From: a virus
Length of the DNA stretch: 40,679 nucleotides
Direction: 5' to 3' (one strand)
IMG/VR virus record: IMGVR_UViG_3300030012_001399
Span: 1 to 40,679 of that record
Part shown: positions 1,206 to 25,069 of the stretch, piece by piece
Position numbering within the stretch: position 1 is the stretch's first letter
Layout: each line of letters starts with the position of its first letter
Made by a program: the position numbers and the translations under genes
Notes under the pieces: generated by a model
The model's input: the letters and a program-made list of their open reading frames with translations, nothing else
What the model was told of the DNA's origin: nothing
Databases searched by the model: none

Positions 1206-1412
1206 ATGCTAGATATTGAGACATATAAAAAGATTGATAAAGGTATACTTGCAAGTTTTGTATTTTTTATACCAAAAAAGAAAACTTCATTTACCTATCA
1301 CTATGTGGCTAAAAACGAAAAAGATGCGATAGTGAGACTAATGCAAGACTATGACATAGAGTTTGATATGAGCAAAGGTCATAGGCTAATCAATCTAAAT
1401 AATAATTTATAA
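1206..1412 (+). CDS. Small early protein, function unknown
   Basis: A 68-residue protein. The ATG is preceded by a TGAGGA purine run about nine bases upstream. It has a hydrophobic stretch ILASFVFFIP near residues 14-23, too short to be sure of a membrane segment, and a helical acidic C-terminal half. It is the last gene before the sRNA region and probably has its own promoter at 1140-1168. Confidence 0.7.
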   Translation: MLDIETYKKIDKGILASFVFFIPKKKTSFTYHYVAKNEKDAIVRLMQDYDIEFDMSKGHRLINLNNNL

Positions 1413-1417
1413 TTCAT

Positions 1418-1446
1418 TTGACACCTACATATAAAGGTGTTAAACT
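1418..1446 (+). promoter_or_regulatory. Sigma-70 type promoter of the small RNA
   Basis: A perfect TTGACA at 1418-1423, an exact 17-base spacer and TAAACT at 1441-1446. It lies outside any gene, and the expected start (about 1450-1454) falls at the foot of the first RNA hairpin. Confidence 0.65.
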
Positions 1447-1450
1447 AAAG

Positions 1451-1545
1451 CGTTGTCAATCAGACAACTTCAATGACGTTTTTTCATTGAACTCCTTAGT
1501 GTGTGTGGAAAGAGGCGAGATTTATTTCTTGCCTCTTTTATTTTA
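1451..1545 (+). ncRNA. Putative phage small RNA of about 95 bases
   Basis: A stand-alone transcription unit with a promoter directly upstream and a strong intrinsic terminator. Stem 1 is GTTGTC (1452-1457) with GACAAC (1463-1468). Stem 2 is TTCAATGA (1469-1476) with TCATTGAA (1484-1491), 8 bp, perfect. A single-stranded linker CTCCTTAGTGTGTGTGG (1492-1508) follows, then the terminator hairpin. The linker starts with an anti-Shine-Dalgarno sequence, so a trans-acting antisense or ribosome-competing role is possible. There is no ORF of note. I do not recognise a known RNA family. Confidence 0.6.
1509..1545 (+). terminator. Intrinsic terminator
   Basis: AAAGAGGC (1509-1516) pairs with GCCTCTTT (1531-1538). 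The stem continues inward as GAGA with TCTT (one G-U pair), giving about 12 bp around the loop TTTATT, and is followed by a T-rich tail. It ends the small RNA and probably read-through from upstream genes. Confidence 0.8.
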
Positions 1546-1562
1546 AATTATTATATTTTTTG

Positions 1563-1683
1563 TCTGGAGTAGATTTGTAAATTAAAATTTAATAGCACTT
1601 AAAAGGAGTGTTGCAGGTTTTAGTCCTGTTTGCCTTTGTTAATTAAATTTTGCATATACATTGGTTTGGCGACCTACTCCAGA
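1563..1683 (+). ncRNA. Predicted structured RNA upstream of the nuclease gene
   Basis: TCTGGAGTAG (1563-1572) pairs perfectly with CTACTCCAGA (1674-1683), closing about 100 bases. Inside, AAAATTTAAT (1584-1593) pairs with ATTAAATTTT (1642-1651), enclosing two small hairpins: CACTT/GAGTG (1596-1610) and CAGG/CCTG (1614-1628). The closing stem ends eight bases before the AAAAGGAG ribosome site of the gene at 1704. This is a plausible cis-regulatory RNA, but matches no riboswitch or ribozyme I recognise. The AT-rich inner stem alone would be weak evidence; the 10-bp outer stem is the stronger part. Confidence 0.45.
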
Positions 1684-1703: not shown

Positions 1704-2582
1704 ATGGGAGCAGTAGGATTTATTTGTCCAGATGGAGAAGAGATAACGTTTAAACGATGTCTAAAAGAATGTCGTATGTCAGAGCGTTGTATGAGTGTAG
1801 CCACATTAAAGATGATGTCAGACCAAAGACCAAACGACAGACCTCCAAGTACAACAGAATTATTATCTGGAACTTGTGAGGCTTACCTCAAAAGAACTGA
1901 AGAATATTATGTAGACCCACAAGATATGGCATTTGCTGTTATGGGAACTATTCATCACTTGCACCTAGAAAGCCAAGAGCTTGATGATAGTGCAATACAG
2001 GAAGAAAAATTAGAAGGATTAGATATTACAGGTATCTTAGACTTTTATGATAAAGATACGGAAACACTTATTGATTATAAAAACACAGGTAGTTTCAAAG
2101 CATCTAAAGTACTAGGAATGACACACGTTATGATGCCAGACCCATCAGGAGCAAGATACAAAAAGTCAGGAGCTTGGGGTAGGAAGGGAGCGTTTAAACA
2201 GGTTAAAGTATTTCATAGAGACGAAAGCAAAGCAGACTTTGGAGATTGGCTATATCAAGTAAATATGTATAGATATTTATTAGAGAAGAAAGGATATAAA
2301 GTCAAAGCAATGAAACTACAAATGAATGTCAGAGATGCTGGCACACATTCAGCTATTGCCAGAGGAGTAGACAAAAATATTTATTTTGTTAATATACCAA
2401 TGGTTGACAATAAAGAAATTGTTTCGTATTTTACAAGCAAGAGAGATGTACTTTTAAAGCATCTAAATACTAACACAATACCAGGGAGGTGTAATGATGA
2501 AGAAACTTGGAACGGAAAAAAATGTGAAAAATATTGTGAGGTCAGAGGACTTTGCCCTTATGTTAATGGATTGGGCGAATAG
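1704..2582 (+). CDS. PD-(D/E)XK nuclease, RecB/Cas4-like with cysteine clusters
   Basis: A 292-residue protein. ATG 1704 is chosen over upstream TTG 1650 because AAAAGGAG (1691-1698) directly precedes it. The nuclease core is seen near residues 108-126: GILDFYDKDTETLIDYKNT gives the Asp and the D-x-K of the PD-(D/E)XK fold. The C-terminus holds RCNDEETWNGKKCEKYCEV followed by RGLC, like the Cys cluster of AddB/Cas4 exonucleases that binds Fe-S. A second Cys group lies at the N-terminus (ICPDGE, RCLKECRMSERC). It likely resects DNA ends for the annealing protein encoded next. Two GTTTAAAC copies (1748, 2192) lie inside. Confidence 0.85.
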   Translation: MGAVGFICPDGEEITFKRCLKECRMSERCMSVATLKMMSDQRPNDRPPSTTELLSGTCEAYLKRTEEYYVDPQDMAFAVMGTIHHLHLESQELDDSAIQEEKLEGLDITGILDFYDKDTETLIDYKNTGSFKASKVLGMTHVMMPDPSGARYKKSGAWGRKGAFKQVKVFHRDESKADFGDWLYQVNMYRYLLEKKGYKVKAMKLQMNVRDAGTHSAIARGVDKNIYFVNIPMVDNKEIVSYFTSKRDVLLKHLNTNTIPGRCNDEETWNGKKCEKYCEVRGLCPYVNGLGE

Positions 2583-3830: not shown

Positions 3831-3840
3831 TTAGAACTTA

Positions 3841-3898
3841 GCGTGGGGGTCTTATACCTCTTAGCTCATCTACTACATCTCATACGAGATTCCCACGC
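3841..3898 (+). ncRNA. Predicted compact RNA fold in intergenic gap
   Basis: GCGTGGG (3841-3847) pairs perfectly with CCCACGC (3892-3898). The enclosed 44 bases contain GGT-CTTAT-ACC (3848-3858) and a perfect ATCTC-ATAC-GAGAT hairpin (3877-3890). It lies between two genes and just upstream of the ribosome site at 3906-3911, so it could control the downstream gene. It superficially recalls a tRNA (7-bp closing stem, 5-bp 3' arm) but lacks an anticodon arm and a 7-base T loop. Confidence 0.45.
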
Positions 3899-3917
3899 AT
3901 CACTATAAGGAGTAAAC

Positions 3918-4070
3918 ATGATTGATTTTATAGTAGTAACAACAACATTATATTTTTTTTACAAAGGATATTTATGGTTACGTAAACGAATTGATGACGA
4001 AGAGAAAAAACATAACGAGATATTTAGATTATCTGAAGATGAACACGACATAAGCGATTGGGGAGTTTGA
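3918..4070 (+). CDS. Small membrane protein, function unknown
   Basis: A 50-residue protein starting MIDFIVVTTTLYFFYKGYLWL, one N-terminal hydrophobic segment (about residues 3-20), then a charged tail RKRIDDEEKKHNEIF. AAGGAG sits seven bases before ATG 3918, and its stop overlaps the next start (TGATG). It follows a predicted RNA fold. A single-span inner-membrane protein is likely; the role is unknown. Confidence 0.75.
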   Translation: MIDFIVVTTTLYFFYKGYLWLRKRIDDEEKKHNEIFRLSEDEHDISDWGV

Positions 4071-24769: not shown

Positions 24770-25069
24770 TTAACATTTCCATCTTCTTCGTGCTTGTCTA
24801 ATTCTAGAATTTGGATTATTTCTAGTTTTAGCAGAACTTCTTTTCAGTTGCCCTAATGACCTTGCACAATAAGACTTTCTTCTTTTAGCTGCTTTACTAC
24901 CTTTTTTAACTTTACCAGTAACAGCAGTTTTTAATTTACTACCAGGGTTAGCTCTTCTGTAAGCAGCTACACCCTTCTTTGTCATTCCAGCACCCTTCTT
25001 TGTAGGTCTGTAATTAGCGTTCTTACCTTTAGTAGTTCTTCTTATAGCTTTAGCTTTTTTTCTAGGCAT
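24770..25069 (-). CDS. Very basic small protein, DUF6321-like
   Basis: A 99-residue protein dominated by Lys and Arg. GAGMTKKGVAAYRRANPGSK and GSKAAKRRKSYCARSLGQL match a widespread small phage protein (DUF6321 as I recall it). The function is unknown; the charge suggests nucleic-acid binding. The start is in a TAATG junction with the thioredoxin-like gene. Confidence 0.8.
   Translation of the reverse strand: MPRKKAKAIRRTTKGKNANYRPTKKGAGMTKKGVAAYRRANPGSKLKTAVTGKVKKGSKAAKRRKSYCARSLGQLKRSSAKTRNNPNSRIRQARRRWKC

Follow-up and report, generated by a model that had tools for sequence, protein, structure and literature searches.

Short RNAs that base-pair with mRNAs have been described in several bacteriophages, among them sar of P22, c4 of P1/P7 and OOP of lambda, and of these sar and c4 pair near translation starts (PMC12197685). 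The RNAs PreS of lambda and VpdS of VP882 are encoded in trans and act on host or phage mRNAs (PMC12197685). RNAs are also known from Vibrio, Pseudomonas, Staphylococcus, Synechococcus and Yersinia phages (review PMC12197685), so the remark in our first-pass annotation that descriptions of such RNAs are rare outside enterobacterial phages is correct only in part. In alphaproteobacteria, the trans-acting RNAs alpha-r14/NfeR1 have ultraconserved anti-Shine-Dalgarno sequences in their unpaired parts and stems that have diverged (PMC10746234; PMC3927594). NfeR1 of Sinorhizobium silences ntrB by pairing at the translation initiation region (PMC10746234).

The locus investigated here lies in a 40,679-base virus record (the window) that belongs to a tailed phage, with recognisable genes for a terminase, portal, tail fibre, Sak annealing protein and DnaB helicase. 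To our knowledge, little has been learned about small RNAs in lytic phages of the environment, and the majority of predictions come from one genome. No close relative of the window was found among isolated phages, either by DNA or by exonuclease; the identity of its terminase to those of isolated phages is below 60%, and about 26% among the matches listed. The exonuclease had no match in phage or bacterial genome collections, none of the bacterial genomes searched for a host had the exonuclease or the terminase, and the genes scanned included none for lysogeny. The gene order of the window is common to its IMG/VR relatives, which we take to be marine from their sample names. One 64-kb contig (G002, with L061-L064) has parts of the late region matched twice and two matches to the terminase large subunit, one of them partial, and may therefore join two phages. 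The palindrome CGTTTAAACG, also present in relatives, occurs in 8 copies in the window together with 5 of CGTTTAAACA (positions 427, 1109, 1747, 3676, 5933, 7511, 29962, 37477 and others), giving 21 strand matches where 0.07 are expected; a binding site or other signal is likely.

A non-coding stretch of 291 bases separates a 68-aa ORF from the exonuclease gene (Table 1). The order small ORF, promoter P1, RNA, terminator and recombination exonuclease, here called the slot, is kept in 16 contigs and is missing in more distant phages, whose exonucleases are 46–55% identical. Upstream of the exonuclease of L107-L110, L119 and L120, where the RNA would stand, there is a short ORF (for example MKNKFQTSFVLDRELWIKFK...) that resembles a ribbon-helix-helix regulator.

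Table 1. Features of the slot and the start of the exonuclease operon in the window.
Feature	Position	Strand	Remarks
68-aa ORF (MLDIETYKKI...)	1206..1412	+	Conserved small protein, always immediately upstream of P1
Dyad TTTGACACCT-N8-AGGTGTTAAA over P1, likely operator	1417..1444	.	Between the hexamers; conserved
Promoter P1, TTGACA-17-TAAACT, extended -10	1418..1446	+	Hexamers 1418-1423, 1441-1446
Predicted small RNA, ~94 nt	1452..1545	+	Start placed 6 nt after the -10
Hairpin 1, 6 bp	1452-1457/1463-1468	+	Paired in every close member
Hairpin 2, 8 bp, perfect	1469-1476/1484-1491	+	Both-side changes in relatives
ACUCCUU core, candidate anti-Shine-Dalgarno seed	1491..1497	+	Invariant in 10 members; single-stranded in models
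Variable linker AGUGUGUGUG	1498..1507	+	Differs among relatives
Intrinsic terminator with T-rich tail	1508..1545	+	Stem 1508-1520/1527-1539
Promoter P2 for exonuclease, TTGCCT-17-TATATT	1529..1557	+	-35 inside terminator 3' arm; TATATT 1552-1557
Structured 5' leader of exonuclease mRNA	1562..1683	+	Outer stem TCTGGAGTAG/CTACTCCAGA
PD-(D/E)XK / Cas4-like recombination exonuclease	1704..2582	+	phrog_2139, E 4e-18; first gene downstream

The promoter, two hairpins, unpaired linker and terminator of the first-pass annotation are all present at 1418-1546. The minimum free energy of positions 1450-1550 is -33.3 kcal/mol, as compared with -16.7 +/- 3.0 in shuffled sequences (z -5.5; 0 of 200 shuffles), and the minimum free energy and centroid structures of the RNA are the same single fold. 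In this fold, about 1492-1507 is unpaired, and the terminator stem has 13 bp including two G-U pairs. Its T-rich tail has an interruption (ATTTTAAATT) and contributes four U to the stem as counted here; the weakness of this tail speaks against a small RNA. Nothing in Rfam 15 matched the window or seven relative loci above the gathering cut-off, and lax limits gave chance-level matches only. A 42-aa ORF overlapping the unit (1418-1546) was rejected as a gene; it begins inside the -35, and in relatives its frame is broken by 1- or 2-nt indels.

Promoter consensus alone would be worthless in the window, since 33 sites were found where 33.4 are expected, but P1 scores 10 of 12 and has a TG upstream of its -10. 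Each of the 16 slot contigs retains the -35 and -10, although the spacer sequence varies. Over P1 lies a dyad that the first-pass annotation overlooked, as it did the overlap of the terminator with P2. The dyad has the same centre in each of 9 members (for 8 of them, shuffle p <0.06), its inner letters show symmetric changes in L005 and L029, and P1 is probably under the control of a dimeric repressor bound there. An early promoter TTGACAAGTTGCTAACATACTAGCTAAACT followed by GCTAGC repeats is found at 1-60 of the window and at about 25004-25055 of G001, and an early promoter related to P1, with CTAGC repeats, stands directly before the window's first gene in relatives; P1 of L032-L034 and L040 is similar to TTGACAAGTTGCTAACATACTAGCTAAACT.

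Could the RNA instead belong to the operon of the 68-aa ORF, as its 3' untranslated region and terminator, possibly processed to a small RNA, with P1 fortuitous? The ORF stops 5 nt upstream of P1 and must use the same terminator. Fifteen homologs of the ORF were read in the slot, and its protein is predicted to have an alpha-beta-beta-alpha-beta fold (pLDDT 86.8), for which a fold search returned no significant match. However, the P1 hexamers are kept in 16/16 contigs, and the dyad in the close group, while the length of the ORF tail differs among contigs; we regard a 3' untranslated origin as doubtful.

The first-pass annotation had staked the RNA on the conservation of its stems in relatives. 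This comparison was run, and the stems are conserved. In the six close members 27 of 27 pairs are kept, with three both-side changes, and in a hand alignment of six distinct members both hairpins have only standard outer pairs. A covariance model built from the six close sequences only, with L029, L011, L036, L037 and L035 held out, recovered L029 and L011 (E about 5e-6) as well as L036, L037 and L035 (E 0.005-0.035), which are more distant, each in the same slot before the exonuclease. At convincing E, each contig has a single full copy. In an alignment of ten members, which was fitted to the structure of the model and is hence biased in its favour, there are both-side changes in 14 of 27 pairs, a level reached in 0 of 500 shuffles; changed cells number 28, against at most 5 after sliding the partners. 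Both-side changes in hairpins 1 and 2 are found in L028, L029 and L011.

The sequence between the hairpins and the terminator behaves differently. The linker AGUGUGUGUG is shortened by 2 nt in L028 and replaced in L011 and L029, and ACUCCUU is unchanged in 10 of 10 members. An invariant unpaired core with variable stems is the usual signature of a base-pairing RNA. Further classes have UCCUU or CCUUU in front of the terminator. In the place of ACUCCUU there is ACUCCUUUGC in the lineage of L098, CCCUUUGC in L033 and UUCCUUUCGUGG in L035-L037 (group 3), and this stretch pairs in neither L098 nor L033, while in group 3 part of it is unpaired. By shuffling, YCCUU near the terminator is expected by chance in 3–7% per class. 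A second pattern scan gave mostly chance matches, but L079/L098 are a real further class. In L032, L034 and L040, P1 and the terminator are present and no anti-Shine-Dalgarno sequence stands before the terminator, a point against the small-RNA reading.

These comparisons also bear on the suggestion that the palindromes function as DNA, as protein-binding or replication sites, rather than as RNA. The dyad overlapping P1 and the abundance of the conserved palindrome CGTTTAAACG elsewhere in the window are in keeping with it, yet the hairpin sequences change and still pair, where a binding site would keep its sequence, and the order hairpin, hairpin, seed, terminator is kept. We consider a role as DNA sites highly unlikely. 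Stem covariation, the invariant unpaired core, the conserved promoter and terminator, synteny and the held-out homologs together lend strong support to the proposal of a discrete non-coding RNA gene, and the RNA structure, seed, P1, terminator and P2 are supported by this comparison of sequences.

The gene was originally called stand-alone. It does have its own promoter and terminator in a non-coding stretch, but the term is too simple, because the terminator and the following promoter overlap, which couples the small-RNA unit to the exonuclease operon. P2, for which the hexamers of the window itself were read by eye, has the form TTGYCT-17-TANNNT in 16 of 16 slot contigs, with a spacing of exactly 17 nt. 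Since the 3' arm of the terminator doubles as the P2 -35, conservation of the terminator may owe part to P2. The main rival of the small-RNA reading arises from this arrangement. Polymerase from P1 would terminate on P2 and so restrain the exonuclease operon until the dyad repressor shuts P1, the RNA being mainly a by-product. P1, terminator and P2 occur together in 16/16 slot contigs, even in L032, L034 and L040 with their unrelated RNA bodies, and the dyad lies over P1; such transcriptional interference nevertheless leaves the both-side changes of hairpins 1 and 2 and the invariant ACUCCUU unexplained. As the sole explanation we think it possible but not probable, and it could instead be a companion of the small RNA. 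The two may be joined, although this too we put forward only tentatively, in a double-acting cassette in which a repressor-controlled promoter makes an anti-Shine-Dalgarno RNA whose transcription, by ending on the next -35, delays the recombination operon. If this is true, one terminator would stabilise the RNA, stop transcription and form part of a promoter.

P2 would give rise to an exonuclease mRNA beginning at the structured leader or, in L035 and L036, at the ATG itself. In these two the P2 -10 sits 5-6 nt upstream of the exonuclease ATG, and their exonuclease mRNA is therefore predicted to be leaderless and to have no Shine-Dalgarno. The exonuclease itself matches Pfam PDDEXK_1 at E 7e-4, which falls short of the cut-off of that family. 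The outer stem of its leader is TCAGGTAGTGATA/TATCGCTACCTGA in L032, with pairing preserved, and the interior is conserved at GCACUUAAAAGGAGUGUUGCAGGU..AAUCCUGU and UUGGUUUGGCGACC; there is no Rfam match to the leader (1562-1683). On the hypothesis of a cis-acting attenuator or leader, a longer exonuclease transcript would have the P1 RNA at its 5' end, with exonuclease expression set by read-through or by pairing of the seed with the exonuclease ribosome-binding site. The RNA is on the same strand as the exonuclease, and in the close group the exonuclease Shine-Dalgarno AAAAGGAGUUUUUAUG can pair with AACUCCUU. Against this, P2, beyond the terminator, gives the exonuclease operon a promoter of its own, an alternative antiterminator pairing is not apparent, and the group 3 mRNAs of L035 and L036 have no Shine-Dalgarno for binding in cis. 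This last point makes action in cis on the exonuclease alone unlikely and favours action in trans, and we consider a cis-acting leader improbable. A 7-nt pairing with the exonuclease leader (AAAAGGAGUG) was discarded as it is absent in L011 by inspection.

The reading that we favour, with modest confidence, is that the small-RNA gene is genuine in a clade of tailed phages that are uncultured and probably marine, and that its RNA most likely acts in trans, masking ribosome-binding sites. RNA polymerase would start at P1 and stop at the terminator, yielding an RNA of about 94 nt. The two variable paired hairpins and the terminator would protect the RNA and expose a single-stranded ACUCCUU (UUCCUUU in other lineages). 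Being reverse-complementary to the Shine-Dalgarno AAGGAGU, ACUCCUU can pair with AAGGAG(U) Shine-Dalgarno sequences, and the simplest mechanism is that the RNA in trans, like NfeR1, masks the ribosome-binding sites of a set of phage or host mRNAs. We infer transcription of the RNA and its timing, the repressor, the targets and any role of Hfq.

In none of 8 genomes did the linker, beyond the Shine-Dalgarno core, pair clearly better than shuffled flanks with ribosome-binding sites of the phages themselves; it may therefore be that the core alone matters, or else the targets are host genes or a small number of phage genes. Among single candidates the ORF at 3918-4070 was the best, being top-ranked in four genomes. 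It was rejected as a specific target, as the pairing stretch forms one arm of a different conserved hairpin and is partly lost in L028. This third conserved hairpin (3839-3900, GCGTGGGGGTCT/AGATTCCCACGC), upstream of a 50-aa ORF, has loop stretches GTCTTATACCTCTTA and ACATCTCAT that are near-invariant in seven relatives, few pair changes and no Rfam match. The small-RNA prediction is directly testable because it combines comparative support (covariation, held-out detection and synteny) with a defined seed, and the covariance model can be used for screening other phages and metatranscriptomes.

How does this RNA compare with those already described? It shares with alpha-r14/NfeR1 (SmelA075) of the Rhizobiales an unpaired conserved anti-Shine-Dalgarno and diverged stems. 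Those RNAs have CCUCCUCCC three times, each in a hairpin, whereas the window RNA is in a phage, lacks the three CCUCCUCCC hairpins and has a single ACUCCUU in a linker; no sequence homology is claimed. The RNAs sar, c4 and OOP have known single targets and belong to temperate phages, whereas the unit in the window precedes a recombination operon. PreS and VpdS are trans-encoded, as proposed for the window RNA, but they bind Hfq and have experimental targets, whereas the targets and any Hfq binding of the window RNA are putative. Phage small RNAs are of a kind already known, outside the enterobacteria too, and the window RNA is best read as a new family of trans-acting phage small RNA with an anti-Shine-Dalgarno seed. 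The less usual feature is the overlap of the terminator with the -35 of the following promoter, a compact design of interest in its own right.
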